Source of the DNA: a virus
IMG/VR virus record: IMGVR_UViG_3300020442_003840
Span: 1-31,664 of that record
DNA: 31,664 nucleotides
Reading direction: 5' to 3' (one strand)
The notes below the pieces were generated by a model. That model was not told where the DNA came from. It searched no databases and saw only the letters and a list, made by a program, of their open reading frames with translations. Shown here in pieces: positions 13,180 to 30,863 of this stretch (position 1 is its first letter; each line of letters starts with the position of its first letter). The translations under genes were made by a program, and so were the position numbers.

Positions 13180-13199
13180 TCTCTAGAAATTTCTAGAGA
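13180..13199. terminator. 20-bp perfect palindrome over the gp7 stop codon
   Basis: The sequence TCTCTAGAAATTTCTAGAGA is a perfect inverted repeat covering the gp7 TAG stop (13193-13195). In RNA it could form a hairpin of about eight A/U-rich pairs with a tetraloop. No U-tract follows, so a classical intrinsic terminator is doubtful. Alternatives are an mRNA 3'-end protecting hairpin or a protein-binding site placed before the gp8 late promoter. The 'terminator' label is tentative. Confidence 0.4.
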
Positions 13200-16100: not shown

Positions 16101-19100
16101 ATAGTTGTGGTGACACCAGATTTGACTGTTCCACCACTTACATATGTGTGAGGAATTGTAGTAATTCCAACGTCTACAGTAAATTGTGTGGAATTTAGAA
16201 CTGAAAGGACACCAAAGACATCATATGCCTTATAAGAATTCTTAGTACCACCATTTGGATATGGGAATATAGTACTAGTAACACCTGAATGTGGAGCTGC
16301 ACATGAAAACTCAATATCAGCGAAACGTACTGACTTACCAGCAGTTGCATAACTATCTGAAGAGGTAGTAACAGTTGCAATTCCTGTTAAATGATCATAT
16401 ACGAAGTTTGAAATACCAACAACTGGACCGTCATAGTATTCATCACAAGAGAACTCTAAGTTTTCTAACCAAACATCTGGTGAATTTAGATTATGATCTC
16501 CAACTGTTGTAATTTCTAAGAATCCACTTTCATTATTATAAGATACTGTATCGATTCCAAGAGCAGTACCATAAGTTGGAATTCCAACAACATCAATAAT
16601 AGTTCCACCATAACCAACTATTGGTAAAACACTTGCACCTTGTAATGGTGCATATCCTAGTCCTGGCGTCGATCCAAATGATATAATGACTCCACCTCTT
16701 GGAAGTTGATTTTGGTTAACATCAGATTCAGAAATTACAATAGAACCATTTGAAGAAGTAATTCCAGAGAAAACTGCTGTTGTAATTCCAGCAGAAAGAT
16801 CCTCTTGAATTGAGAAATTATTAGACTGATTATTACTAGTGGTGGGAGCTTGATATATTCCATTAATAAGAATAATTCCAGCACCACCACTAGTTCCCAG
16901 ACCAACAGTATTGGCACCACCAACAGTTAATCTATAATCCTGATCTAATCCAGTAAATTCCTCTGAAATATTATCAAAAATTTGATTACTTTCATAACTC
17001 GATCTCAAGAAGACTCTACCGAAGAATTGAGATCTTGCCTCTGGTAAATTATCAATATCTTCGAAAAGTTGATCTTCTAAAATACCTCCAGGAGCATCAG
17101 TGAAGTGAACTTTATTTTCTGTGATTGTGTAAGAACCTCTGTATACATCAAACGTAGAGAATCCAACGTGTGTTGTTGCTATAGTTCCTGCTACACCCCT
17201 TTCAACATTTAATAGTGCAAAAGTTCCACCAAAAGAAATAGGTCCTGCTGCAAGAGTTCCAAAACCAACATTTAGAACCTTAACATATTCATCTTCAACC
17301 TTCATCAAATCGCCAAGTACGACGGATGTAATACCACTCATGTGCAGCATACTATCAGCAACACTAACATTTCCACCAACATTCTCAAATGATAAGAGGG
17401 AATATGATATAGGTGCTTGTATCAAATTATCAACAGTAATAAGAGTCTTGGAAAGTTTTTCAACCATTTCAAACTCATGAGCATTACCAGAACCGATAGA
17501 TGTAAATGTAACTGCAATTCCAAGTTCAGCATTTGCTTTTGTAGTTGCTACTCTCATCTTGCCACTATTATCTTTTATTGCAAATACTGTAGATGGTAGA
17601 AGTGTGGTATTAATACCATTATGATCAGGAGTCTCAACAATCTGCATAGGAGCAGATTCTATTGAAATAAAAGATGATTTTGGTCTATAGACTAACTCTT
17701 CACCAGTGCTAAAGAAATGCTCAGTGATATTTAAAGTTGATGTATCTGAAGAAAGATTTATTACATCCTCATCAGTTGGATCAAATGCTTTTACAAAGAT
17801 TGGAGTTCCATCATGAGTTAAATCGAAAGTTGTCTTAAATAAATCATCATCATTTGCAGCGATGAACTTAGAAAGTTTCATCGACTCTGTAATATTGCCA
17901 TATTGCAGATCTTCAGGAGGATTTGGAACATCATAATCATGATGGAAGTTTTCATTAAATGCAGATATCTGAATATCACCACCACCCTGATATTGTGGAT
18001 CTGGATAGAACTTAAATGCTCCAGTATATCCATCCATTTCCATACCAAAAGTACCAATACCACTAGTGCTACCGATTGATAAGAATGGATACTGCATTGT
18101 ATATGCATTCTTTCTAACATCAAAGGTATCAGTAATAACCATCAGTTGATGTAAGGCACTCGTTTCACCAATACTGACTCTTACAGTTGACTTCATTGAT
18201 GTTTGTTGACCAATATCAAATGATTTGATGGTCGTAGATGCAATAGAAGTATTAACAAAGCTAGAATCAAATGTTACTGTTCTTTCATCTCCATCTGGTT
18301 GACCAGCTTTTTTGAATCTATAAGTTCCAATACCAGCAGCAACTGTTCCAAAACCAACATTTCTAGTTCTTACAAAAACTGGATGACCAGTGTCATTGTT
18401 ATAAACTATATTTACATTTCCATCCTCTATGGTAGCGTCAAAAGTTCCGATAGATTCGGTAGTAATATCAGCCTCATCACTATTGAAGTAGAACTCTGCA
18501 ATATTTGTATTTTGACCATCGTGATCTACATACAATTCAACATAATTCATCTCTCTCGTAGTATCATCTAAAACATGAATATACGAATGAATTGCTTCCA
18601 TTCTATTAGTCGGTGAAGACATTATTACTTGAGTACTACCAACTCCAACTGCACTTGTAATACCAATGACATCAACAAATCCTACAGATATGGATGATAC
18701 ACCAACAACAAAATTAGTAAATCCAGTATCTAAATGCTTAACATTATAAGATGTATTATAAATCTCAAGTGGAACATATTGTAAGAATATTTCACCCTGA
18801 TTATTTGTGCTGGCGGTAATTTCAGCAAAATCATCAGACATATTGGTGATTGCACCCTTTTGCATCGTATAAGAATCGCCTTGATTGTTATTAAGAACGA
18901 TTACTTCAGTAAACATCACTTGAGAATAATCAACGCTAGTAGCTTGAACTAAGAACTTACTGCATTGTCTGTTTGCTGTGATTTCTGTTAAGTTTAATTC
19001 AGGATCAAGTACTAAGTTATTGTTAGAGAATTGTGGACTAATATCATCCATTTCCAAAACTCTATTACTCTTGACTTCAACATAATCTGAAAGTTTTGTA

Positions 19101-22100
19101 GTTTTGAGTTCAACAAACTTAGAGATATCATTGGCAACATCAACCTCAGCATCTCTAGCTTCATCGAAGTTGTTAATAGTATCAACTCTCTCTTCACTTA
19201 AGAAGTCGATAGCAAGATCTGTGTTTTCTTTTGGAACTATAGCAATAGTTCCAGAATGTTGAAGAATCTCTGTATCAACAAAATTCTTCAATCCAGATGG
19301 GTGAACTAAATTATTGACAGGACTAACAACTTCCTCCCAAGTTTTTTTAGTCTGAATTGAATATGAAAGATTCTGATAGTAATCGTTATCTGGAATTACT
19401 TGAGTATCATCATTTAACTTTCCAGTATCATCTTGCCATCCAAAATTCTTAACAACAGAATAAGATATCTCAAATAGACCTTCAGATATATTAACTTCCT
19501 CTAATGTTGCTATAGATCCAGATTGTGTACCTCTGATAACATCACCAACTTCAAAGGGATAAATTCCTGATACTTTAACAGTATTCCCTTCATAAGTTAA
19601 AACTGTAGATTTAGTTCTTGTGAAAACGCCGTTAACTTGAACTTCAATATCTTCATTATTCTGGAATGAAGAAAACTCCGTATGTACCTCAAACCTTGGA
19701 TATACATTAGCATTAATAACAGTTCCATAGACATTTCCTGTCATTCCAATACCAGGACCGATGTCAGTCAATTCTGAAAGATTATATTCAAGTCTTCTAG
19801 GTATATCAGTACCACCAAATGTGTATGATTGAACAGTAAAGAATCCATATCCATAATCCTCGGAATTAAATCCATCACCTTCAGTTCCATACTTAGTAAG
19901 ACCTTCAACAAATATTTGATCACCAACTTCGAAAGGTTCTACAGCAAATCCATTAAGTGGTGTAACCAATGTACATGTTACGACACCAGAACCAACGGAA
20001 CCTTCATATGCTTGAATTGCAACACCATTTGTATTATTAATCGTTTTAACCTCAAGGTATGCATCACCCATAAGACCTTTTGGAGGACTTTCAACATTCA
20101 CTTTTATGATGCTAGCTCCAGCCATTTCTGCATCTAAGTGTCCAGAATCAATTTTTTCTTTTGTGAGAGTATTGTATAATACTAATCTTGGTGGTGTTAA
20201 ATACTGAGATCCTCCATCTAATACATCAACTGATGCAACAGCTTCCGAATTCTTTGTAATTAATTGAGATGGAACCTGAGCAATAGGTCTTAGAGTTTTA
20301 TCAGAAGAATAATCAAAACCTTCATTTAGAATTTCGATTTGATTTACATTACCTACAGCAGCAGACTTGGTGAGGAGATTTGCACCATCACCCAAAACTG
20401 AATTTGAACCAGTAAATTCAGGTAAAACTTTATATCCATCTCCAGGAGAAGTTATTGTAATACCACTAATTCCACCCAAAGCGGATTTAGAAGTTGTAGT
20501 GTATTTCAATACATCACATTCAGATTGTACATATGATGTTTTTTCTGGAGGTCTTGAATGTGATAATACAAATGTTGTAGCAGCAATTCCAGAAACCAAA
20601 TATTTTCCAGTAAAGAAACTATTCTCATATGTTATTTCTGAATAATTACTTACATTTTGATTATCTGCAGTGCTAATATATCCAGATTTTTCCAGAGCAT
20701 AATATAATGGTGATGGGACATTAGCATCATAAGTTATTGCTACATATGCACTGGTAAATCCAACAGTATTGAAACCAACAACAGAGAATGTAGTTGTAGA
20801 TCCTGTAGAAACAAACTCATCTTTGAATTCCTGATCATAGAAGAATTTGAAGTTATATCCAAGTAAAGAAGTATCACTTACATCAAATTTGACATCATTA
20901 TTTTTTAAAATCTTAAGTGGTGGATTAATTTGACTTATTTCATGTGTGGCAGCAGGAGCAGTGGTTATACCAACAACTATTGGTGGATCTGCCAAATAAT
21001 CTGGTACAGTTTCACAAAGTTGAATATGATCATCATCAACTCTATAAACAAAGTAAATTCCAGACGATAAACCAACAGGAGGATTATCTGAATTATAAAC
21101 TACCTTTTCACCATTAGCAAAAGGATGACCTACTATTTGTATTTGATTAGTATTTGTATTGAATCCTACTGATGAGAATTCAATGGGATTTATCAATAAC
21201 TTTTCATTGAATATATCATACTTAACTCTTATAGCAGTTGAAGTTCCAATACCAACAGAAAGATTTGGTTTTACGTCCAAATTAATAAAATCACCATTAG
21301 TCAAATTATGTGAAGTTGATACCGAAACAACAGTATTAATTCTCTGAACATTTGCAAGTGTTTGGAAATAGTCAGACTTTATGTTATAAGATCCAATATC
21401 TGTCCCCTGTCCACGGAAGAATAATCCATCAGTTGTAGTTGTTAATCCAATTTGAGTTACAATTCCAATATGATCATGAGATTTTCTTATGACATATACA
21501 GTTTGCTCATTACCAGCAGGTAAATCAAATACAGCACTACCTGCAGTATTTGCAACTCCAATTGAAGAAATGCCAGAGTTCTTTGATAGGATTACTCTTT
21601 GATTGGTTTTAAATGGATGATTGGGTAGATATATTGATTGTGATGGTATAGAAACTGTATGATTAGTTTGAAGACCGATGTTATAGGTTACGGCAAGTCC
21701 TACACCAGCAGTTAAACCAATACCTAAAGAATTATGTGGATTAAAATATACAGAATCATTATATGAAGATTCAAAAGAATCAATTTCCTTACTGAAAGTG
21801 AACTTATCAGGATAGAAGTAAACCGGTGATGTTGCAGTATGTGCAATTGAAGTATATTCTCTAGAAACTCTCAGAACATTGAGATCATTGTAAATGTTCT
21901 GAAGGGTGAATATTTCTGTTCCAATTCCAATACTATTACCAATTGAAATTCCTTCAGGTATTCTAGGTAATGTAATATCAACATCAACTGCACTGCCAGA
22001 AGAAATTTCAGTTAACAAGGATGATGTAATGGAATTAACTCCAATCTGGTAAAATCCAGCTAACTTAGTGGCGATTGTGGATAATCCGGAGACATTAATA

Positions 22101-25100
22101 TAATCTAAATTCTTTAAATCATGGTAAGGTGCTATCTTTACTTCTACTGTTTGATCATCTTTCTTAGTAAATATTGCATTCTCATATAAAAGAGTAGATG
22201 TTTCTAAAGAAACTATATCTTTACCTTCCAGTTCAGATACAAATGCAAATAGTCCACTTCCACCATCATCTCCGTCAGCAAAATCCAATTGATCTTCAAC
22301 TTTATAATTTACACCTGCACTCAATATTTCAATTTCTTCAATAGAACCTTTTGTAATAGACTCTATTCGAGTTGATTGTACAAATTCTTCATTAGATTCA
22401 GTAATAAAATCATTCTCAGCATTTTCTTCGGAAACCGAATATGGGAATGTATTTCTAAGTAAGGATGAGTTATTAAAATCAAAATCCTGATTTAACTCAA
22501 CATTTTCCTCAAGTAGAGGAGATCTGTATCTATCTCCAATAAAGTATGGGAAAACTCCAGCATTGTTGTTATTACCATCTACTATTGATGGTGCAAAATA
22601 TGCGTAAGTTCCTGTAGGAAACTCTGGTGTTAAACAATATCTGCCATTATATTGATCAAGATCTCCAGAATCATCGAAAACATAATCATCTACAAAGAAT
22701 CCTAATGGTAGATTGGGTGGTCTATCAGAAACATTTGCAGAACTTTTTGTATAACCAGACTCCAATCGTTTGATATCTGAGTTAATGTCTTGTGGGTCAG
22801 AATATCCAAATGATCCATAAATTGGATTTCCATCGTAAGCCCATCCAATTATTGGTGAATGTGCAACTCCTTCGTCATTATACTTATTGAAAATAGCATC
22901 AGAATATGCACAATGTGCATATTGCAAATTATTATCTGGTGTCGAAATAATTAAATCAGTTGCTTCTTCTACTGAAGTTGCAGCATCTTTAAACAATACA
23001 TTATTATTAACAGAAAGTGATCTTACCTTAGATTGCAAAACAGCATTTCTACCAGCACTTTCTACCGTAAGTACCGTACCTGAAGTTGAATATCCTATAC
23101 CCGTGTTTATAACAATAACTTCAGTAAGTTTACCATTATTAATTACGGGTCTAAACTGAGCACCAGTTCCCTCACCATGAACAACAATAGATGGTGTGGA
23201 GAAATATTCTTCACCACCACCACTTACAATTACCTCAGTAATCTGCCCATTAATGTTAACTATTGGGGAAATACTGGCATTTTTTCCATTCTTTACAACA
23301 ATATTTGGATTATCTTCATAATTTAAAACTTCAGATCCAATACTCGTTCCACTATCATAAATGTATGCGTCTATAATTTCACCGCGAATTACTGGAGTCG
23401 CAACAATTGATGCTGAAACTGTTGTACTGCCAACTCCAACTGAAGTATAATTGATATTAAGTGAAAAATCTGGATACTTGAACATTTGATATCCAGAACC
23501 AGCAGATGTCAAGTTTACTGGTTTTCTTCTATCAAAATTGGTTCTATCTGCAGCAAGACTAAACTGATTATCAGTAGTCTTGAGAACATAATATTGACTT
23601 GTCGATGACAGTCCTGTTATTGCACTAGTTTCATACTCATAGTTAATAAGATCTCCATCATTAAATCCATGATTAGTAAAATTAATAGTATTGGTGTTTA
23701 TAGAGACACCAGATGGTGAAACTCTAAGTAACCTATTAGTATACCCACTACCACCATTTAAAACTTGCAAACCAATTAACTGTCGGTTTGGTTTAGTTAA
23801 GAAGTTATGTACACCAACTGTCCCAACTGTTGTAAATCCAACAGTGTTGATACCAGCATTATAATCACCAATCTTTTCATACAAGAATACTGTTTTATCA
23901 CTCAATACAGAAACATAATACTCAGCATCTTTAACTAAAGTTCTTCCAGTATCTTCATTTCCACCAAGATAAGTCCCTATACCCAGAGGTTCATACACTC
24001 CTGGATCGTAAATAAGTGGTTGACCATCAGCAAGGTTATGTGGAGTGGGAAATGTTATAGAGTCGGTGTTTATATCGACACCACCACCTTCAGTTAACTG
24101 TTTAGCGTTAAATGGTAATGATCTTCTCCTATTTTCAATAATAGGTTCAAATGCTGCTCCATCTCCATTTCCACCACTAAAACCAATAGAAGCAATTGTA
24201 TTAATCTCAAAATCTATTGGATCTACAAAAGCATCTACAACAGTACCAGATATAACTGCTTGAATCTTTGCACCACCAACAGAAGATTCGATAGCTGGTG
24301 GACTGAATACATCATAACCAGTTCCACCATTCAATACATTAACCTCAGTTAATGGTCCATAATAAATTTTATCATCACATTTATAACTGTATATTTCAAC
24401 ACCATCTAAAAGCATTCCAATTGCACCTGGTGATGTCGCATCAGATTGACCATCACCAATATTTGGATGTAATGGAAATTTCTTAAGTATTTTTTGTGGG
24501 GATATAACTTTTTCTTTCTGTGCTAATACAGTAAAGTTATGAACTCCTTCTGGAATAAATTGGAAGGTTAGATAATTAGGACTACCAATAGAACTATTCG
24601 ATGCATACAATCTAATTGTATTATCTCCTGTTACATCCGCATAATATGTACCTGGAAATAGACCATCAATAGGTTCTCCAGATGCAGTGTATACAACTTC
24701 ACCACCATCAAAAAAGGATAACTTTACACCAGGATTAAATTTTATTGTCGAATACTTACCAGTCGTTACAACATAATCTGTCAATTCTGCAACATCATAT
24801 GAGTATAATGATTTTGTTATCTCATCTGATGGAAGTGAATTTGATGCAACATACATGTATTGATCATCTTCATTATATACATTTTGTACATCTGAGACAA
24901 TCTGGTCAAATTCTGTAGCAACGTTTGTGACGTTTGCAAAATTAATTTTTCTTCTAAGATCGTAATTAAAGGAAGGGTTTAAAGTAAAACTATCTGTAGT
25001 TCCTACCTGATTGTTAAAAATCGAATTTACTACGAGATTTGCTGCTATTACAGTCTGAGAATCTCTAGTAACTATCTCAACTATATCACCAACCTTCAAA

Positions 25101-26521
25101 ACCGATCTATCGGGTGCATATGCTAATGATACTTGAGATGTAGATCCTGTAGCAAAAGAATCGATTTCAATTCTGGATGAAGTATTATAAGTCCAACTAT
25201 TAGCAAAAATTTGCTTTTTGGTTCTATCAAAAGCGGGATTTGTAATTTTTTCACCAATAGTCTTAACACTAATTTCTTCTCCGGGAGAAATTGGTGAATT
25301 TCTAGTTGTAACTTTATAATCAGAAATGATACCAGTAATTCTAAATTCAACCTTATTGGTTAAATCACCATGACCATATCCATAATAAGTCTCACTTGAT
25401 GTAATAGTAGATGCTACACCAACTTCTTCAGTTATACCAGAACAATTGAAAAACTCATTAATACTTTTATCTGTATAAGAAATAGTATTACTTCCTACTT
25501 TTAATACACCACTCTTAGGGAATCCAATGGTTGTATCAACAGCAATGCTTTTAGCACCAACTGGTGCAGCTGCTGTATTTTTAGTATTTCCAGTAATTAC
25601 AAAATCACCAAATACTGGTGGGAAAGAATCATCATAACCAAAGAAAAGAAATACTTTATAGTAAGTTTTAGAACTTCTCTGAAATACATCAACTTCAGAT
25701 ATTGTTGCATAAGTTCCTAAATCTGTACTCTTATAGATTGTCTGTCCCTCTAATGAGGTAAGATCACCACTTATGGATTCACACATTACAACTTCTCTTC
25801 TCAGATTAGTTGCAGAAGAGGGTTTAATAGTCCTTTGTTCTAAGTCAAATACTCTTGGTTTCTCTCCATATAGAACGCCAAATAAAATTCTAAATGATTC
25901 TTCTGTTCCTTTAGATCCATAAAAAGTTTTTGCTTCTTTGATAAAATTAGAGATATCAATCCCTGGAGCAAAATCAACACCCTCTAAACCGGGAGTTAAA
26001 GCATACTTAATTTTTTTATAGAATTGTTGTAAGAATACAGAGCTTAAATTATTTAAAGTTGTGGAGGCAGTATGAGATGCTGCTGATGACTCACTGAAAA
26101 TTAACTCACCTTTGTTATATCCATAATCATACCCAGTTACACCAGAAAATCCACGAACACAACCATGGAATTCGGTTGGAGTTTTACTGGTATATGTGAT
26201 GATTTCATCATCAATTTTAAATAATCCGTAAGATTCTGGATATCCTTTAGTGCTTGATACTTGAATAGTTGTAGTAGAACTACCAATATCTGAAGACAGT
26301 GTTGCACTATCAACAATAGTTTCTGCAATTAATGAATCAATATTCAAATATTGATCCAAATTATCAGAAAGATCTACTGGACCTCCCTGATATTCTTGTG
26401 AAATATAGTATTGTTTTAAAAATTCTGCGAATTTTGGATTATCACTTACAATAAATTCAGGTAATTGACTATCAACAATATCTTGAATTTGTACCCTGGG
26501 AGAGAAACCAGTTTCTATCAT
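13193..26521 (-). CDS. 7: Giant baseplate wedge initiator gp7, 4442 aa
   Basis: This intact 4,442-aa reading frame lies between gp6 and gp8, the gene 7 position. T4 gp7 is about 1,032 aa and starts wedge assembly by binding gp10 and then gp8 and gp6. The N-terminus (MIETGFSPRVQIQDIVDSQL, then FLKQYYISQEYQGGPVDL and SFRILFGVLYGEKPRVFDL near residue 210) and the C-terminus (FSWGRLSGFTRSSTP, then GLSTFPTLQRRGAGLR) look like cyanophage gp7. Between them are repeated beta modules: EII.YT units near 100-145, 355, 1540 and 3095; 'H.F..G..V.Y' units near 584, 812, 937, 1624 and 1785; G.GY units; a YHYH-like domain near 1215-1310; a CxxxH-like repeat region near 3355-3650; and a helical module near 3727-3874. 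An AGAGG overlaps the end of gp6 and decides the start, two bases after its stop. No frameshift or stop interrupts it. Positions are estimates. Confidence 0.92.
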   Translation of the reverse strand: MIETGFSPRVQIQDIVDSQLPEFIVSDNPKFAEFLKQYYISQEYQGGPVDLSDNLDQYLNIDSLIAETIVDSATLSSDIGSSTTTIQVSSTKGYPESYGLFKIDDEIITYTSKTPTEFHGCVRGFSGVTGYDYGYNKGELIFSESSAASHTASTTLNNLSSVFLQQFYKKIKYALTPGLEGVDFAPGIDISNFIKEAKTFYGSKGTEESFRILFGVLYGEKPRVFDLEQRTIKPSSATNLRREVVMCESISGDLTSLEGQTIYKSTDLGTYATISEVDVFQRSSKTYYKVFLFFGYDDSFPPVFGDFVITGNTKNTAAAPVGAKSIAVDTTIGFPKSGVLKVGSNTISYTDKSINEFFNCSGITEEVGVASTITSSETYYGYGHGDLTNKVEFRITGIISDYKVTTRNSPISPGEEISVKTIGEKITNPAFDRTKKQIFANSWTYNTSSRIEIDSFATGSTSQVSLAYAPDRSVLKVGDIVEIVTRDSQTVIAANLVVNSIFNNQVGTTDSFTLNPSFNYDLRRKINFANVTNVATEFDQIVSDVQNVYNEDDQYMYVASNSLPSDEITKSLYSYDVAELTDYVVTTGKYSTIKFNPGVKLSFFDGGEVVYTASGEPIDGLFPGTYYADVTGDNTIRLYASNSSIGSPNYLTFQFIPEGVHNFTVLAQKEKVISPQKILKKFPLHPNIGDGQSDATSPGAIGMLLDGVEIYSYKCDDKIYYGPLTEVNVLNGGTGYDVFSPPAIESSVGGAKIQAVISGTVVDAFVDPIDFEINTIASIGFSGGNGDGAAFEPIIENRRRSLPFNAKQLTEGGGVDINTDSITFPTPHNLADGQPLIYDPGVYEPLGIGTYLGGNEDTGRTLVKDAEYYVSVLSDKTVFLYEKIGDYNAGINTVGFTTVGTVGVHNFLTKPNRQLIGLQVLNGGSGYTNRLLRVSPSGVSINTNTINFTNHGFNDGDLINYEYETSAITGLSSTSQYYVLKTTDNQFSLAADRTNFDRRKPVNLTSAGSGYQMFKYPDFSLNINYTSVGVGSTTVSASIVATPVIRGEIIDAYIYDSGTSIGSEVLNYEDNPNIVVKNGKNASISPIVNINGQITEVIVSGGGEEYFSTPSIVVHGEGTGAQFRPVINNGKLTEVIVINTGIGYSTSGTVLTVESAGRNAVLQSKVRSLSVNNNVLFKDAATSVEEATDLIISTPDNNLQYAHCAYSDAIFNKYNDEGVAHSPIIGWAYDGNPIYGSFGYSDPQDINSDIKRLESGYTKSSANVSDRPPNLPLGFFVDDYVFDDSGDLDQYNGRYCLTPEFPTGTYAYFAPSIVDGNNNNAGVFPYFIGDRYRSPLLEENVELNQDFDFNNSSLLRNTFPYSVSEENAENDFITESNEEFVQSTRIESITKGSIEEIEILSAGVNYKVEDQLDFADGDDGGSGLFAFVSELEGKDIVSLETSTLLYENAIFTKKDDQTVEVKIAPYHDLKNLDYINVSGLSTIATKLAGFYQIGVNSITSSLLTEISSGSAVDVDITLPRIPEGISIGNSIGIGTEIFTLQNIYNDLNVLRVSREYTSIAHTATSPVYFYPDKFTFSKEIDSFESSYNDSVYFNPHNSLGIGLTAGVGLAVTYNIGLQTNHTVSIPSQSIYLPNHPFKTNQRVILSKNSGISSIGVANTAGSAVFDLPAGNEQTVYVIRKSHDHIGIVTQIGLTTTTDGLFFRGQGTDIGSYNIKSDYFQTLANVQRINTVVSVSTSHNLTNGDFINLDVKPNLSVGIGTSTAIRVKYDIFNEKLLINPIEFSSVGFNTNTNQIQIVGHPFANGEKVVYNSDNPPVGLSSGIYFVYRVDDDHIQLCETVPDYLADPPIVVGITTAPAATHEISQINPPLKILKNNDVKFDVSDTSLLGYNFKFFYDQEFKDEFVSTGSTTTFSVVGFNTVGFTSAYVAITYDANVPSPLYYALEKSGYISTADNQNVSNYSEITYENSFFTGKYLVSGIAATTFVLSHSRPPEKTSYVQSECDVLKYTTTSKSALGGISGITITSPGDGYKVLPEFTGSNSVLGDGANLLTKSAAVGNVNQIEILNEGFDYSSDKTLRPIAQVPSQLITKNSEAVASVDVLDGGSQYLTPPRLVLYNTLTKEKIDSGHLDAEMAGASIIKVNVESPPKGLMGDAYLEVKTINNTNGVAIQAYEGSVGSGVVTCTLVTPLNGFAVEPFEVGDQIFVEGLTKYGTEGDGFNSEDYGYGFFTVQSYTFGGTDIPRRLEYNLSELTDIGPGIGMTGNVYGTVINANVYPRFEVHTEFSSFQNNEDIEVQVNGVFTRTKSTVLTYEGNTVKVSGIYPFEVGDVIRGTQSGSIATLEEVNISEGLFEISYSVVKNFGWQDDTGKLNDDTQVIPDNDYYQNLSYSIQTKKTWEEVVSPVNNLVHPSGLKNFVDTEILQHSGTIAIVPKENTDLAIDFLSEERVDTINNFDEARDAEVDVANDISKFVELKTTKLSDYVEVKSNRVLEMDDISPQFSNNNLVLDPELNLTEITANRQCSKFLVQATSVDYSQVMFTEVIVLNNNQGDSYTMQKGAITNMSDDFAEITASTNNQGEIFLQYVPLEIYNTSYNVKHLDTGFTNFVVGVSSISVGFVDVIGITSAVGVGSTQVIMSSPTNRMEAIHSYIHVLDDTTREMNYVELYVDHDGQNTNIAEFYFNSDEADITTESIGTFDATIEDGNVNIVYNNDTGHPVFVRTRNVGFGTVAAGIGTYRFKKAGQPDGDERTVTFDSSFVNTSIASTTIKSFDIGQQTSMKSTVRVSIGETSALHQLMVITDTFDVRKNAYTMQYPFLSIGSTSGIGTFGMEMDGYTGAFKFYPDPQYQGGGDIQISAFNENFHHDYDVPNPPEDLQYGNITESMKLSKFIAANDDDLFKTTFDLTHDGTPIFVKAFDPTDEDVINLSSDTSTLNITEHFFSTGEELVYRPKSSFISIESAPMQIVETPDHNGINTTLLPSTVFAIKDNSGKMRVATTKANAELGIAVTFTSIGSGNAHEFEMVEKLSKTLITVDNLIQAPISYSLLSFENVGGNVSVADSMLHMSGITSVVLGDLMKVEDEYVKVLNVGFGTLAAGPISFGGTFALLNVERGVAGTIATTHVGFSTFDVYRGSYTITENKVHFTDAPGGILEDQLFEDIDNLPEARSQFFGRVFLRSSYESNQIFDNISEEFTGLDQDYRLTVGGANTVGLGTSGGAGIILINGIYQAPTTSNNQSNNFSIQEDLSAGITTAVFSGITSSNGSIVISESDVNQNQLPRGGVIISFGSTPGLGYAPLQGASVLPIVGYGGTIIDVVGIPTYGTALGIDTVSYNNESGFLEITTVGDHNLNSPDVWLENLEFSCDEYYDGPVVGISNFVYDHLTGIATVTTSSDSYATAGKSVRFADIEFSCAAPHSGVTSTIFPYPNGGTKNSYKAYDVFGVLSVLNSTQFTVDVGITTIPHTYVSGGTVKSGVTTTIFPDGTQPGGNVFGIADITGSNTVLVNIGISSFAHTYVGMGSVYPYYRDLNFGSAYREPVSIALTDANHTGSAANITVEVDRNDHKFVSATTNCVTRSIGGTLSISTAHYAQLTGVLTLTFTGAHGLTDANTITIADQSLTFTCNQDFHRTQHLYPRSHDPASGANLDVLTTPSSTTLTVNVGASLYETGGRLKFNIVDGGSGYVTPQLGIEPPTYSNLGVIGQSRLGIGTTTDTGLGTLLNLRVGNSDLNTNGDIFFDAADLIGANKDFIADIAYGRMLAAYPSFVIPTANPQDCKDDIADLLQAMLYNLKFGGNDLTVDAAMLYITGAHVAGEEAETVYAFLEARDMAIQAMRNETITVGGHTTRTQVFDNTITVDSGSPKCATVASAISTLVGIVTTAVENGTTPKRTVAPGGQYVVEDFFTARKGYGFKKGDIARAVGLVTAIGLAEPIKHFELDVLEVFSDSFSAWQFGQVDYIDDISSLQDGVTTKFELRYQTELLSFEKNRRDPDSQLIEFAPLLIIFVNGILQKPYEAYTFEGGTVMEFTTPPKANDKVAMFFYRGSAADSSVVLSNESIKVGDEVELLRNNTNLGVTTAQDPRVVTAIAGFDLARTPLYGGPGIDDDNYKPFKWIKQKTDMILEGEIVSKARDSIETQVYPTAKIIDYFDITDTELFVDNAQFFNYEDPADISFDGIIINYPNIDPVAAGISAVVSVAGTISGLTIYEAGSGYSGSSLDISIAPPPILGVGVGTTATATVSIVNGSITSPVITNPGSGYDQSKVPPVLVAPPTAITDGISGVTNVEGFDGDIIGIGTTAGIGVPLAIEFELDGTLSPYAGLSTDFRIYIFDTHVGDGVTSILGSDSEVVGVGTTCIDNVYNISDFKPATGKIICNVHSGFNHVGIATTGVIGAGVAKFSWGRLSGFTRSSTPVSIGVSAYDVSAGLSTFPTLQRRGAGLRGSGALAKQLL
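15530..16460 (-). repeat. Sub-repeat region of gp7 (FSC/FTC modules)
   Basis: Residues about 3355-3660 of gp7 carry at least three related units. Each begins with FSCDEYY, FSCAAPHSG or FTCNQDFHR and then has a strand-rich block ending near FTVDVGI or LTVNVGA. The similarity is in the protein, not in near-identical DNA, so the copies are old. Their role is unknown; they look like tandem beta domains in a fibrous part of the protein. Confidence 0.6.
22590..22880 (-). other. YHYH-like domain coding segment within gp7
   Basis: Residues about 1215-1310 of gp7 read SPIIGWAYDGNPIYGSFGYS, then a linker with ESGYTKSS and FFVDDYVFDDSGDLDQYNGR, then CLTPEFPTGTYAYFAP. The order 'GWAYDG.PIYG ... DLD..NGR....PE.P.GTY.Y' is the signature of the YHYH domain family (Pfam YHYH). 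The namesake YHYH residues read YAYF here, so any metal-site histidines of the family may be lost. This is recognition by eye, without a search. Confidence 0.65.
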
Positions 26522-26522
26522 A

Positions 26523-28445
26523 TTACAACCTCTTTATTTCTCCGTTTGAATAGCTAGATCTATAATAATTTTCGGATGTGAAGACTACACCAGACGTATC
26601 ATCTCCAGATGCAATAACATCTTTAACGATATTTATCTCACTTTTGTCAATGCTAAATGTCAGATACAAATCTTTCAATCCAATGACATCATTAGACTCT
26701 GGAATTGCCTGAATTTCAATAATATCTCTTGGTCTGGAAGTTTCTGTAATAACGATAGTATTTAATAGAATTTCACCTCTTTCATAGTCTACAGTTCCTG
26801 CATCTTGAACTACAATAATTGTTGAACGGTTACCATCTGCATCAATACCTTCATCTCTAACAATTGCAATAGTTCCTTTTCTATATTCGCCATCTTCATC
26901 TTGAATTGGCACATCAGTAATATAAACGTCTTGAGTTTCACCTAAAACTTTAAATCCTGTTGATTTGATATTTTTACCATCAGGATGTACATGGAATCTA
27001 TTTCCATAGCATATTTCATATTGAGTTTGAGCATTAATTAATACTTTCAAATCTCGTCTGATTTTAACTTTAGTAATATTTGAAGTAATACCTTCATCAG
27101 TATTATCAATTACCTGTTGAATTTTACTATATTTGAACCTTCCACCAAAAGAATTTAAGTCAGTAGAATTTGAATACGTTGTTAAAGCATTCAATACTTT
27201 AGTTTTCAAATCTCCAGCACTTGCTACTTTAGAATTATTAAAATATACTGCCGAATCGATCTCAACATATAGTACTTTGAGGTCAATTATCTGAGGATCA
27301 ATACCAGTAATAGAGTATAATTTCAGTTTACTTTTAATTTCCTGCTTATCAAAATCGGAAATGAATGTACCATTCTTAGGTTTAATACTAATATAAACCT
27401 TACCAAATTCTGGTGGACTTAATTCTTCACCACCAACAACAGAAGCAGACTCTGTTTGTGGGAAAATCTTTGATTTGAGAATGGTTTCATAATCGTTTGC
27501 TGTAACCGCTCTGTATTGTGAAGAATAGAGGCGTGGAGCATAGTTTCTTATGGAATCTATACTCTCTATGTCAGCACCATTTTGAGCGGCATTAACGGTC
27601 GTTATAACGCTATTTGAGGCAATTATTGGATTAGTACTATCATTGAGGAATGATCCTGCAAAAGCAAAATTTGTTGCTCCATTACCATCAGCACCATTAC
27701 TAACAATATAAGTGACGGTAATTACATCTCCCTCGGTTAATCCCCTTCCAAAAGTTCCATCACCAAAAAGAATTTCATACTTTTCGTCTTTTACTTCTTG
27801 GAGTAAGAAAATTTCAGATCCACCATCAACATCAAAAATATTATCAACCATGTTGAGTGATCTTCCCAAACCAGTAGCATTGGTTGGTCTAACATAAACC
27901 TTTATGGTAGATGTATCAATGAATGAGTTGTTTAAGATAAACTTCTGATTGATAGAACCATCAAAAGTAAACTGCTTTTTAAGGAAAGTTCCCTCTACTA
28001 TTTTAAGATTATTGAACGTTGCAACTCCATCAATAACAGAAGCACTTACATCTTCTGGTATGGAGAATACGTATGATGACTCAGAGACCGTCCCAGTACA
28101 CACCAGACCCGCTGGTATGGTCAGTGTGGAGGTGTTTGCATCAGTTTGGGCAGTGAACGATACATGGGCAGTAGCGGACGTTCTGGAGCGTGGTACGTAC
28201 CCGATGTTTCTTGCCAAAGAAACTACATTTTCCCTTAAAGTTGCCGATTCTAAGAAAGATTCATTGACAACTAAGTTGGAATTGAAAGCACTTATATATG
28301 TGTTATATGCTAAAGTATCAATTAAGACCGAAAAATTAGATCCTTCAAAATCAAAATCACTAAAAGATGAGTTTGATCGAAGATAATCTTTAATCGATGC
28401 TTTTATTTGATCGAAATCTAGGTTAGTATACTTTGTAAAAGGCAT
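26523..28445 (-). CDS. 6: Baseplate wedge protein gp6
   Basis: This 640-aa protein is close to T4 gp6 (about 660 aa). The N-terminal block matches T4 in pattern: DYLRSNSSFSDFDFEGSNFS, VLIDTLAYNTYISAFNSNL, ESFLESATLRENVV and ARNIGYVPRS. Later FGDGTFGRGLTEGDVITVTY and YIVSNGADGNGATNF resemble the T4 'FGEGE...EYISTNGADANGAVGF'. RAVTANDYETIL also parallels T4 'CVTATDYDTF'. Gp6 is a baseplate J-like protein that forms the inner ring of the baseplate and joins neighbouring wedges. It starts three bases after gp25 and ends one base before gp7, so it belongs to the same transcript. No anomaly was seen. Confidence 0.96.
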   Translation of the reverse strand: MPFTKYTNLDFDQIKASIKDYLRSNSSFSDFDFEGSNFSVLIDTLAYNTYISAFNSNLVVNESFLESATLRENVVSLARNIGYVPRSRTSATAHVSFTAQTDANTSTLTIPAGLVCTGTVSESSYVFSIPEDVSASVIDGVATFNNLKIVEGTFLKKQFTFDGSINQKFILNNSFIDTSTIKVYVRPTNATGLGRSLNMVDNIFDVDGGSEIFLLQEVKDEKYEILFGDGTFGRGLTEGDVITVTYIVSNGADGNGATNFAFAGSFLNDSTNPIIASNSVITTVNAAQNGADIESIDSIRNYAPRLYSSQYRAVTANDYETILKSKIFPQTESASVVGGEELSPPEFGKVYISIKPKNGTFISDFDKQEIKSKLKLYSITGIDPQIIDLKVLYVEIDSAVYFNNSKVASAGDLKTKVLNALTTYSNSTDLNSFGGRFKYSKIQQVIDNTDEGITSNITKVKIRRDLKVLINAQTQYEICYGNRFHVHPDGKNIKSTGFKVLGETQDVYITDVPIQDEDGEYRKGTIAIVRDEGIDADGNRSTIIVVQDAGTVDYERGEILLNTIVITETSRPRDIIEIQAIPESNDVIGLKDLYLTFSIDKSEINIVKDVIASGDDTSGVVFTSENYYRSSYSNGEIKRL

Positions 28446-28448
28446 TTT

Positions 28449-28850
28449 TTATCTCGTTGCCTCTAGGATGAATGAAAACTCTTGTGTTGGAAGTTCTTGT
28501 CCAATAATATTAAAGGATACAAGTACTTCAAATTCATTAATATCTGGTCTTGGGAAGACATCTACCTCAACATTATTAACTCTTGGTTCATAATTTTGAA
28601 TTACATTCTTAATTTGATCACGAATTACTGATGCCGTACCAATATCAACGAATTCAAATAAACTAGAACGTACATCTGATCCCAAATCAGGTGAAAAAAA
28701 CCTTTCATTGGGCATGGTTTCGACTAAATTTCGAATTGCACGTATAATTGCACTCTCATTCTTAAGAATGGTGAGATCCTTTGTTACTGGATGGGCATCA
28801 AAGGATAAACTTATGTCTTTAAATGACCTGGATACCCTTCGTACTGCCAT
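28449..28850 (-). CDS. 25: Baseplate wedge protein gp25
   Basis: This protein is 133 aa and T4 gp25 is 132 aa. It has the GPW/gp25 fold sequence: a run IIRAIRNLVETMPNERFF, SPDLGSDVRSSLFEF, then VIQNYEPRVNNVEVDV, matching the T4 NYEPRI segment with its conserved E-P-R. Gp25 sits at the inner wedge, binds gp6 and helps to set off sheath assembly. It opens the gp25-gp6-gp7 run of wedge genes, preceded by a near-match late promoter at 28883-28890. The ATG is chosen because the MAVRRVSRSFKDISL start gives the family length. The Shine-Dalgarno sequence is weak. Confidence 0.96.
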   Translation of the reverse strand: MAVRRVSRSFKDISLSFDAHPVTKDLTILKNESAIIRAIRNLVETMPNERFFSPDLGSDVRSSLFEFVDIGTASVIRDQIKNVIQNYEPRVNNVEVDVFPRPDINEFEVLVSFNIIGQELPTQEFSFILEATR

Positions 28851-28882: not shown

Positions 28883-28890
28883 TATTTATG
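28883..28890 (-). promoter_or_regulatory. Probable late promoter (CATAAATA) before gp25
   Basis: On the minus strand CTCATAAATAATTG has one mismatch to TATAAATA at the first base, a position that varies in cyanophage late promoters as I remember them. It is 32 bases before the gp25 ATG in the 50-base gap that separates the baseplate genes from the upstream cassette. Confidence 0.55.
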
Positions 28891-28900
28891 AGCTTATCTT

Positions 28901-29563
28901 TTATTTTATCCAAAAACCTTTTCTGAGGTAGTCTGAATCTTCAACATACTGATAATTTTCCATATTTCCCACTTCTTGGTCATTCCAAACAGGAATTGCA
29001 ACCGAATTTCCATATCTAAAGTCAGGATTTCTTCTAAAATGCACCTCAATTAACTTATCACCAATGAATTCGCAGTTTATCCAACCGTAACGATACAATC
29101 CAATGGTCGTTAAAATATTAGGATATGGTATTTCTTTATCTATTTTCTCCCATTTAGTAAATCTATAGAGATTATTCTCATCTTTATGCCCTTTAACAAT
29201 AAGTCTTTGTCTTTTTACATGATAATCGACGGAATGTTCCTGCATCCATTGGGGATAACATCCAGTCCTATCTTCATGATACTCATAATCGACTGAATAA
29301 TGGTCTCCTTCAAACACCTCACACCAAAATTCACCAGGATGTAGGTGTTCAGTATCCTTTTCTATATGTTCAATACGTGCATAACGTCCCATACCCATGA
29401 AATTCATACATGGGCGCACAATATAAAAACCAGGTTTAGGAACTTCCAATCCCGCAGGACCACAAGTATAACCTAAACGCTGGCTTAAAAACAGTTTGTT
29501 GTATATCCATAAATGCTGCGGAAGGATGCGGTTCCACTCTTCCGCAACAGTTTGGGCGTACAC
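28901..29563 (-). CDS. Conserved-looking protein of unknown function, 220 aa
   Basis: I do not recognise this family. The GTG start shares a base with the TAG stop of the 47-aa gene (TAGTG) and has AAGGA eight bases upstream, which supports GTG over later ATG codons. Notable segments are GFYIVRPCMNFMGMGRYARI at residues 45-64, then HLHPGEFWCEVFEGDHYSVD, and LYRYGWINCEFIGDKLIEVH near the end. It is rich in Y, W, H and acidic residues and has no signal peptide or membrane segment, so it is probably a soluble enzyme or binding protein. The GFYIVRP segment loosely recalls ATP-grasp-type strands, but I cannot support that fold. It ends the cassette directly before the gp25 late promoter. Confidence 0.85.
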   Translation of the reverse strand: MYAQTVAEEWNRILPQHLWIYNKLFLSQRLGYTCGPAGLEVPKPGFYIVRPCMNFMGMGRYARIEHIEKDTEHLHPGEFWCEVFEGDHYSVDYEYHEDRTGCYPQWMQEHSVDYHVKRQRLIVKGHKDENNLYRFTKWEKIDKEIPYPNILTTIGLYRYGWINCEFIGDKLIEVHFRRNPDFRYGNSVAIPVWNDQEVGNMENYQYVEDSDYLRKGFWIK

Positions 29564-29706
29564 TACTTTCCTTGACCCCTCAGGCGCTTACGAGCACCAT
29601 TACGAGACGACGCGGCGTACTTCGTATGTTGCCCGCTTCCTTGACGAGTTTTTTTGGGGGTAGATTCAATTTTATTTCCACCCGAGAGACTTTTGCGTGT
29701 TGCCAT
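29563..29706 (-). CDS. Very basic small protein, 47 aa
   Basis: The ORF reads MATRKSLSGGNKIESTPKKT and ends with KYAASSRNGARKRLRGQGK. It is dominated by K, R, S and G and has no hydrophobic core. A strong AGGAG lies nine bases before the ATG. The ATG overlaps the preceding stop (TGATG) and its own TAG overlaps the next GTG start. Such a chain may bind nucleic acid or an acidic virion surface (inference). I remember similar short, basic ORFs in cyanophage genomes with no function assigned. The DNA is richer in G+C than the wedge genes. Confidence 0.85.
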   Translation of the reverse strand: MATRKSLSGGNKIESTPKKTRQGSGQHTKYAASSRNGARKRLRGQGK

Positions 29707-29873
29707 CAGTTTTTACTCCTAATAATTTCAGTTCTTAAGTCGTCAGATAAAGGAGACCCAGTGTTATAAAATTCGTCAGCCAGGTCTTGCATTACATCAA
29801 AATACTCATCTTGCGAAAGGTTCTCATGAATGAGTTTATCTTTGCGGTAGATGTTGTATGTTTCTGTTACCAT
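29706..29873 (-). CDS. Small acidic protein, 55 aa
   Basis: The protein is MVTETYNIYRKDKLIHENLS followed by an acidic helical chain (QDEYFDVMQDLADEFYN) and a polar end. The ATG at 29871-29873 is one base after the stop of the glycosyltransferase gene. An in-frame upstream extension runs through that gene and is not real. The start MVTETYN.Y...K...E.LS..E.F with an acidic amphipathic helix is a pattern I associate with small cyanophage proteins. Function is unknown. It overlaps the 47-aa gene by one base, so translation is coupled. Confidence 0.8.
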   Translation of the reverse strand: MVTETYNIYRKDKLIHENLSQDEYFDVMQDLADEFYNTGSPLSDDLRTEIIRSKN

Positions 29874-29874
29874 T

Positions 29875-30639
29875 TCAAATAACTCTTGTCTTCTCGTGCC
29901 CAACGCGAATGCGAGGATCACACCAGATTTCAAAACCTGCTTCCTTTGCATCCAAACAGAATGATACATCTTCTCCGCACATATCCTGAACCTCTCCAGA
30001 TTCAAAGACTTGCATCTTAGGAGCAAACCAAGGATAAGGCATACCCTTGTCCTCAAAGACACCGTGCTTGATCAACAACCATCCAAAACCAGTGTAGTCC
30101 ACAGTAAAGGGTTTACGACGCTTTTGAATCGTCTCAACGGTTTCATGGTTCATTACACCACCATTGTTACGGAAGTCATCTTCTTCCAACCAGTGAGCAA
30201 CAGAGGTCGTTACACCATCTTCAGTTGCATACCAACCACCAGCAATATCTTTGTCCATCAGAATTAACTGCCAGAACTTTTCAGTATTAAAAACAATATC
30301 TGAGTCAATCCATAATTGATAATCATACTTCAGTCTTCCATCCCAGGGAATCTGATCGGGTCCACGCAAGACGTTAGCGCCTAAGCACTTACAACGTGCA
30401 AAGTTTACCATCGAAGAATAATCTTGCGAAATTTGGATACTGGCGCCAGCCTGTACCAAGTCGAAGCAAAGTTGTACGAAGCTCTTTAAATATGCATAAG
30501 AAACTCCTCTACCTGGTAAGCAGAATACGACGGACTTTCCCCGCACCATCTCCTTTGCTTTATCATAGTCCCATTCTTGCTGTTTTTGTGGTGCTGCAGC
30601 AGTTGGGGATTTTGCTTTTACTGTAAATCCTTTAGCCAT
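29875..30639 (-). CDS. Predicted GT-A glycosyltransferase, 254 aa
   Basis: After a charged, flexible first 30 residues comes SVVFCLPGRGVSYAYLKSFV, a Rossmann-like nucleotide-sugar region. YQLWIDSDIVF carries a DxD-type metal motif (D-S-D, residues 112-114). Later come DIAGGWYATEDG, TGFGWLLIKHGVF and GEDVSFCLDAKEAGFEIWCD with a histidine at 248 (VGHEK). This order, DxD then a GED...C loop and a terminal histidine, is typical of small GT-A transferases (GT2 or Mnn9-like). The protein probably transfers a sugar to a phage or host surface acceptor; the acceptor cannot be read from sequence. It heads the tight cassette. No signal peptide is present, so it acts in the cytoplasm. Confidence 0.75.
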   Translation of the reverse strand: MAKGFTVKAKSPTAAAPQKQQEWDYDKAKEMVRGKSVVFCLPGRGVSYAYLKSFVQLCFDLVQAGASIQISQDYSSMVNFARCKCLGANVLRGPDQIPWDGRLKYDYQLWIDSDIVFNTEKFWQLILMDKDIAGGWYATEDGVTTSVAHWLEEDDFRNNGGVMNHETVETIQKRRKPFTVDYTGFGWLLIKHGVFEDKGMPYPWFAPKMQVFESGEVQDMCGEDVSFCLDAKEAGFEIWCDPRIRVGHEKTRVI

Positions 30640-30686: not shown

Positions 30687-30863
30687 TCAAGAAATCTCTT
30701 TCTGCTCTGTGAGTATTACATCACCACCATCAATCTCTAACCGCAACTTCGTACCTTCGTACCATGCAAGGTCATTCACAACCCATTCAGGCAACTGCAG
30801 AGTATACTCATCAGTTACAGGATCGACCTCTACGGTTAAAATATCTCCGGAATTTTTTTGCAT
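30687..30863 (-). CDS. AbrB/SpoVT-like small DNA-binding protein, 58 aa
   Basis: This 58-aa protein starts MQKNSGDILTVEVD and has LQLPEWVVNDLAWYEGTKLR and then LEIDGGDVILTEQK. 'LP..v...lgw.eGt.l.l...dg.v.L' is the swapped-hairpin AbrB/SpoVT/MazE pattern. Such proteins form dimers and bind DNA as transition-state regulators or antitoxins. A toxin partner is not seen next to it. A palindrome (30868-30879) lies four bases before the ATG, in the region that would bind an autoregulator. GAAAG provides a modest ribosome-binding site. The protein is short for AbrB (usually 80-95 aa), so only the DNA-binding half would be present. This gene is expressed from its own 222-base upstream region. Confidence 0.7.
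   Translation of the reverse strand: MQKNSGDILTVEVDPVTDEYTLQLPEWVVNDLAWYEGTKLRLEIDGGDVILTEQKEIS

Follow-up and report, generated by a model that had tools for sequence, protein, structure and literature searches.

Gene layout of the glycosyltransferase cassette

The window analysed here, a 31,664-base stretch of the IMG/VR virus record IMGVR_UViG_3300020442_003840, comes from a T4-like cyanophage and is probably a fragment of its genome; its DNA relatives in a phage collection (168 records) were Synechococcus, Prochlorococcus and marine phages. Four consecutive genes on its minus strand, with 254, 55, 47 and 220 codons, code for a predicted GT-A-type glycosyltransferase (GT; 29875..30639), a 55-aa protein (29706..29873), a 47-aa basic protein (29563..29706) and a 220-aa protein with a predicted ATP-grasp fold (28901..29563, beyond the coordinates given in the preliminary description of this DNA). 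The 55-aa gene starts 1 nt past the GT stop codon (TGA-A-ATG), while the next two start codons each overlap the preceding stop codon by 1 nt (TGATG at the 55-aa/47-aa junction and TAGTG at the 47-aa/220-aa junction). The four proteins matched the phage families phrog_1574 (GT, E 1.3e-122), phrog_3252 (55-aa, 5.3e-18), phrog_516 (47-aa, 3.4e-23) and phrog_3577 (220-aa, 2.8e-50), indicating that they correspond to real genes and not to chance open reading frames (ORFs). The close spacing of the four genes reported in that description was therefore confirmed. The GT belongs to T4-GC 102 and the 47-aa protein to T4-GC 394, while the P-SSM2 match of the 55-aa protein falls in PSSM2_107 (T4-GC 103).

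The set is flanked by two different types of promoter sequence. A putative sigma70-type promoter (TTGACA-17 nt-TATGAT, read from 30690 to 30662 on the minus strand) precedes the GT gene; it retains 11 of the 12 consensus bases and includes a TAnATA element in its spacer. It ranked first among the 10 sites found in a scan of the window, where 9.0 sites of all grades were expected by chance, and was both the only strict site in the window and the only match at up to two mismatches (0.19 expected). No late box of the form NATAAATA was found before the window's GT. Such a box (CATAAATA; 28883..28890, minus strand) lies 32 nt before the start of the next gene, which codes for the baseplate wedge subunit gp25 (28449..28850, minus strand) and is followed by that for the baseplate wedge subunit gp6 (26523..28445, minus strand).

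Promoters of the GT and gp25 genes

Related loci were scanned with profiles; these comprised regions of 26 phage records and 160 loci from IMG/VR, of which 80 had been retrieved with the GT and the other 80 with the 220-aa protein. The two groups share at least one contig, and L027 and L123 are the same contig, present twice. Promoters were counted only in unique upstream sequences of at least 100 nt. The strict form TTGACN-17-TATRAT was present in 92 of the 131 unique GT upstreams, against a mean of 0.05 and a maximum of 1 in dinucleotide shuffles, while the late box was detected in seven of them, which is the chance level (6.8 in shuffles). The reverse was seen for gp25: 128 of its 138 upstreams had the late box (shuffle mean 10.6), mostly 20-24 nt before the ATG, and none of the 138 had a strict sigma70 site. 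The late box was also absent before the 47-aa gene (0/137) and the 220-aa gene (0/73), as expected if both depend on transcription from upstream. According to the available part of a review on cyanomyoviruses, early genes of phages S-PM2 and Syn9 carry sigma70-like motifs, and the late promoter has the form NATAAATA (PMC2984593). The presence of a sigma70-type promoter at the GT gene and of a late box at gp25 means that the GT cassette and the baseplate genes look like separate, differently timed transcription units. The promoter types suggest an early or early/middle class for the GT unit and the start of a late unit, including gp6, at gp25. The closeness of the cassette to the baseplate genes thus does not imply that the two are produced together.

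The TAnATA element occupied a fixed place in the spacer of 69 of 83 unique strict promoters (0.37 with shuffled spacers); it may be an operator, a determinant of DNA shape, or part of an overlapping early/late promoter. Inspection of 14 whole phage records, 11 of them with the GT, revealed 135 strict sigma70 sites versus 16 for a reversed control pattern, some of the sites being inside genes. The form including the spacer element was found without mismatches at four places in these records, all of them before the GT gene. A scan of IMG/VR with a tighter motif alone yielded at least 120 sites, and the GT followed 118 of the 120 listed; the motif had been derived from GT upstreams, and many of the contigs concerned had also been retrieved by way of the GT. 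Strict sites were found before other genes as well. In a 26-kb stretch of P-SSM2, four of five strict sites lay 21-36 nt before annotated starts (those of the GT, endonuclease V and two small hypothetical genes). In a 41-kb stretch of S-SRM01, four of nine did so, all before hypothetical genes, one of which sits two genes before that for DNA polymerase.

The other neighbour of the GT gene is a gene coding for a small 58-aa protein of family phrog_661 (30687..30863, minus strand), the stop codon of which overlaps the -35 box of the GT promoter. Its relative at this position in S-SRM01 carries the annotation DNA-binding, and that in Syn33 the annotation AbrB/MazE-type. On the far side of the baseplate genes, and also on the minus strand, lie very long ORFs of 4,442 codons (13193-26521) and 2,410 codons (4332-11564).

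Conserved and variable parts of the cassette

Searches of phage records with tblastn detected the GT in 105 records and, at the same E limit of 1e-5, the 220-aa protein in 50; at a limit of 0.01, 398 records had a match to the 47-aa protein and 21 to the 55-aa protein (near-duplicate records included). The 55-aa protein, short and diverging, is under-counted in this way. Gene order was counted only in loci extending 3.2 kb or more beyond the GT gene, which drops four of the 22 named-record GT loci (L021, L022, L023 and L025). The order GT, 47-aa gene, gp25 was kept in 14/18 named-record, 53/54 GT-selected and 51/51 p220-selected loci, the last being those chosen by the 220-aa protein. The exceptions were S-SSM7 (which has gp25 but no 47-aa match), S-CAM7, S-TIM5, the 735-kb phage LR756501 and locus L098. 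The full set, with the 55-aa and 220-aa genes, was present in 3/18, 14/54 and 33/51 loci, respectively, the last group having been chosen by the 220-aa gene itself. The four-gene order proposed in the preliminary description thus holds in part: the succession of GT, 47-aa gene and gp25 is widespread, but the 220-aa gene, found in 14 of the 54 GT-selected loci, is optional. With start codons picked by profile position, genes overlapped or were separated by no more than 5 nt in 125 of 140 loci for the GT/55-aa pair, 84 of 137 for the 55-aa/47-aa pair and 60 of 96 for the 47-aa/220-aa pair.

The core of the cassette therefore consists of the GT and 47-aa genes, usually joined by the 55-aa gene, while the 220-aa gene belongs to a group of cargo genes found between the 47-aa gene and gp25. 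Others code for S-adenosylmethionine decarboxylase (speD), 2OG-Fe(II) oxygenases, a 2Fe-2S ferredoxin, a SET-domain protein, CP12 and several unknown proteins. A site of auxiliary-gene exchange recurs at this place (e.g. L016:1969-2340, L064, L080, L013 and L014). In S-SCSM1 (L021), a tryptophan halogenase gene lies one gene earlier than the usual slot, between the 55-aa-like and 47-aa genes. In S-CAM7, the GT and 47-aa genes are widely separated (182 and 67 kb, respectively), which indicates that the neighbourhood is dispensable. The displaced S-CAM7 GT (L007, KU686212.1, locus 1-387) lies about 3.6 kb downstream of a gene for a collagen-repeat protein, an arrangement that recalls the glycosylation of collagen hydroxylysine.

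The preliminary description had suggested that the small genes code for helpers of the GT. A single copy of the 47-aa gene was detected in 16 out of 17 cyanophage records, among them those of Syn33, S-RSM4 and P-SSM4, in the whole of which there is no phrog_1574 match. The 47-aa protein is thus not exclusively a helper of the GT, in line with the 398 versus 105 records obtained at the E limits of 0.01 and 1e-5. It carries a conserved RQG..TKYA..SRN...YRGQG motif.

An AlphaFold2 model of the GT had a predicted local distance difference test score (pLDDT) of 87.3 and a predicted template modelling score (pTM) of 0.83. Foldseek returned 56 PDB matches at E <= 0.001, headed by Mnn9 (E 7e-8); among the 50 of these 56 that were listed, all were glycosyltransferases or the multidomain protein LH3. 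With VIA-align 2, the first rank was held by A197 of Sulfolobus turreted icosahedral virus (STIV; Z 18.0, 2.5 A, 164 residues), followed by LH3 (17.4), Mnn9 (16.5 over 199 residues), mimivirus R699 (16.5) and human ColGalT1 (14.5), and Z was at least 8 for 560 of 997 aligned chains. An alignment of 33 GT sequences was prepared from the window's protein and 32 of 138 collected sequences left after dereplication (L268, which has in-frame stops, was left out, and L260-L263, L271 and L272 were not included). Residues D112 and D114 (the DxD motif), E223, D224 and H248 were invariant in all 33 and also in the nine members of a more diverse set, which have in common a WID-x-D block and, in the C-terminal part, the block EDV-FC ... 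GHEK. Motifs of the ED and GH type in this part of the chain are hallmarks of GT-A enzymes. Judged by its predicted fold, the 254-aa protein is a GT-A-type glycosyltransferase, as the preliminary description had proposed, with a DxD metal site that is invariant in all the members aligned. Neither a missing DxD site nor a lack of co-occurrence in relatives, either of which would have refuted that description, was seen. A relative 36% identical to it, encoded by the 735-kb phage LR756501 (L024), passed the cut-off of Pfam model Glycos_transf_2 (PF00535) with 24.0 versus 23.3 bits. Searches of the sequences of solved structures with the GT and 220-aa profiles gave nothing significant, and Pfam searches with 33 members of each family gave weak matches only, below the cut-offs.

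The GT is under very strong constraint. Its identity to the window's protein exceeded those of gp25 and gp6 in 12/12 named-record, 46/46 GT-selected and 40/40 p220-selected loci (98/98), with GT medians of 82-88% in the three locus sets. In pairwise comparisons among the named-record loci, GT identity was likewise above that of gp25 in all 153 pairs (medians 79.8% versus 45.9%). At codon positions 1, 2 and 3, identity was 86.5, 92.4 and 52.8% for the GT and 68.4, 82.0 and 50.0% for gp25 (138 loci each). Synonymous sites are thus about equally diverged in the two genes, which argues for selection on the protein and not for recent exchange. GTs with 71-89% identity were also encoded by contigs assigned to metagenome-assembled genomes of several bacterial and archaeal groups in GTDB (L260-L268); these are probably mis-binned cyanophage contigs.

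The model of the 220-aa protein (pLDDT 87.1) matched PurK along 198 of its 220 residues in VIA-align 2 (Z 12.5, 3.6 A), and PylC in Foldseek (E 3.5e-6). According to this whole-chain match of the model, it is an ATP-grasp-fold protein. Enzymes with this fold have a conserved Lys in strand 2 of the RAGNYA unit and a final ExN motif, as stated in the available text of PMC4431377. In the 33 members aligned, E82, E165, E173 and R177 were invariant. By-eye mapping suggests that the strand-2 Lys is replaced by R50 (33/33), and that the final motif is E173-x-H/Q (30 H, 3 Q) in place of ExN. The text available from papers on cyanophages and ATP-grasp proteins does not name this family; in the accessible part of a jumbo-phage survey, phage ATP-grasp ligases of the R2K family are suggested to modify host proteins (PMC7824862). 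A role as a polyamine ligase was considered and dropped: speD accompanied the 220-aa gene in 13 of 17 p220 loci of the GT-selected set, versus 14 of 51 others (Fisher p 5e-4, kinship uncontrolled), but in only 3 of 70 loci of the p220-selected set. In S-SRM01 (L001, record 94631-95204) and in the contig present as L027 and L123, the 220-aa homologue is divided between two frames, reflecting either a broken gene or a sequencing error.

Possible roles of the glycosyltransferase

The differing promoter classes of the GT and gp25 genes weaken the idea of virion modification and favour an early, host-directed enzyme. In the reading we prefer, to which we give an even chance, the GT cassette of T4-like cyanophages would be an early or early/middle unit placed before a late baseplate operon. 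Host RNA polymerase would recognise the sigma70-type promoter, which is strong and conserved and lies in the 47 nt that precede the GT gene; by stop-start coupling, ribosomes would move on from the GT gene to the 55-aa gene, the 47-aa gene and then the cargo gene, here that for the ATP-grasp-fold protein; and late transcription of gp25-gp6 would begin anew at the NATAAATA box. During takeover, the GT would move a sugar from a nucleotide-sugar to a host target, which could be a protein or some conserved component of the envelope. A more specific version can be offered only tentatively: a single conserved early GT effector would attach sugar to a single host molecule, a dedicated three-part promoter (-35, TAnATA, -10) would occur almost only at its gene, and the operon would serve as a loading dock for swapped enzymes.

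Several observations weigh against an early, host-directed GT. The strict promoter is unevenly spread: judged by coordinates, it precedes the GT in seven of the 11 GT-bearing whole records, and in a set of 31 thinned, divergent GT relatives, 14 had the strict and 21 a relaxed form (the latter counted without a shuffle control). Allowing one mismatch, the form with the spacer element was found at eight places in the whole records, one of them before a GT, bringing the total to five of 11 GTs. Two of the 120 listed motif sites had no recognised GT after them, one of these having just 82 nt downstream; the other, in L386 (8122, minus strand), was followed by 900 nt with no recognised GT. All these promoter counts were drawn from related sequences. 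Further, as reported in the available part of PMC2984593, sigma70-like motifs were not found in S-RSM4, and overlapping early and late promoters may serve for middle transcription. Late in infection, a sigma70-type promoter may still be active, and read-through can occur; early synthesis would not prevent an enzyme from acting on virion proteins later. No Pfam or NCBIfam glycosyltransferase model matched the window's GT, and its host target is arrived at by exclusion.

Early expression would also fit a change in the lipopolysaccharide (LPS) or O-antigen of the host surface that blocks superinfection, a role proposed for cyanophage LPS clusters in the available text of PMC7824862 and PMC2984593. 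We consider this rather unlikely for the present GT. In the annotated regions, where most genes are unnamed, no named nucleotide-sugar enzyme was found within 2.5-4 kb of the GT gene (the L016 region ends at the end of its record), and the model of the GT appears to have no separate membrane part. Further, LPS-cluster glycosyltransferases are described as sporadic and polymorphic in the accessible part of the literature, whereas the phrog_1574 GT keeps the high median identity given above.

Glycosylation of the virion, the role put forward in the preliminary description, would involve the GT decorating baseplate or tail proteins of the adjacent operon with the help of its small partners. The near-constant position of the GT gene before gp25 in the GT-selected loci agrees with this, as does the closest solved structure, STIV A197, proposed to glycosylate a coat protein (PMC4187194, in its available part). 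The proposal loses ground, however, with the GT promoter being of another class than that of gp25, with the absence of gp25 within 4 kb on either side of the GT gene in S-CAM7 and S-TIM5, and with the retention of the 47-aa gene in phages that lack the GT. In addition, the record of S-SCSM1, for which the available part of the corresponding paper reports mass spectrometry of virions, labels gp25 and a neighbour, but not the GT, as virion proteins, although this is weak evidence. Synthesis early in infection is still compatible with virion targets; all the same, this role now seems improbable.

It is very unlikely that the GT is a non-catalytic binding or structural module with a GT-A fold, as in the accessory domain of LH3. 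The LH3 matches do fall on residues 277-521, which we take to be that accessory domain, but all 33 GT members aligned keep the DxD, ED and H residues, and the protein is very strongly constrained. A collagen-type pairing of hydroxylase and GT is brought to mind by the matches to LH3, ColGalT1 and R699, by the nearby 2OG oxygenases and by the collagen-repeat gene of S-CAM7; given the part of LH3 that is matched, it is kept as an idea only.

The DNA glucosyltransferases of T4 have a GT-B fold. The predicted fold of the present GT is GT-A, and among the VIA matches listed for it GT-A-type enzymes were found and GT-B ones were absent, an absence from a list that excludes nothing. Glycosylation of DNA bases, which the T4-like nature of the phage and the 2OG-Fe(II) oxygenase genes beside or near the GT gene in P-SSM2, S-SCSM2R and S-8S55 might bring to mind, can be set aside as most improbable, there being, in the available text of PMC2984593, no evidence for DNA glycosylation or the use of hydroxymethylcytosine in cyanomyoviruses.

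The family of the GT was known, and the gene is named glycosyltransferase in the GenBank records of Sf-CH5, S-SCSM2R, RN05-S and DSL-LC03; what is new is the contrast between its sigma70-type promoter and the late box of gp25. A literature search, with subscription titles mostly outside its reach, gave no account of the GT cassette, its promoter or the cargo slot in the text available, and one for a cyanophage glycosyltransferase together with the gp25 baseplate wedge found nothing. T4-like cyanophages are widespread in the sea, and many of their genes lack a function. The GT, which is more conserved than its baseplate neighbours and has a host-type promoter to itself, is a promising candidate for a shared step of host takeover, and can be directly expressed and assayed. 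The GT gene ends about 1 kb from gp25 and seems to belong to another expression class, which calls for caution when function is deduced from neighbourhood. In addition, the slot before gp25 marks a site of auxiliary-gene exchange, and a fold can now be assigned to the 220-aa family.

With regard to known systems, the window's GT falls among the cyanophage proteins of phrog_1574 and T4-GC 102, for which PHROGs lists no function. STIV A197 (PDB 2c0n), from an archaeal virus, shares with it a compact viral GT-A fold with a DxD motif, but the identity in the structural alignment is 22% and the sequence profile reached only E 0.21. The Mnn9/Anp1 mannosyltransferases (GT62) are likewise close to it in structure, as judged by the Foldseek and VIA-align 2 matches cited above, whereas the window's protein has no match to Pfam Anp1 (PF03452) and the relative L270 scored 21.8 bits versus a cut-off of 28.8. 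Membership of GT62 was rejected, no PF03452 score being above the cut-off. PurK and PylC share the ATP-grasp fold with the 220-aa protein along its whole chain but differ from it in that none of its 33 members had a Pfam ATP-grasp match, and in the apparent substitutions of Arg for Lys and of ExH/Q for ExN. Finally, the glycosyltransferases of cyanophage LPS clusters, as far as the accessible accounts describe them, resemble the GT in being encoded by phages of the same virus group, while the GT differs from them in having no named sugar genes beside it, a mostly fixed place, a highly conserved sequence and a sigma70-type promoter of its own.

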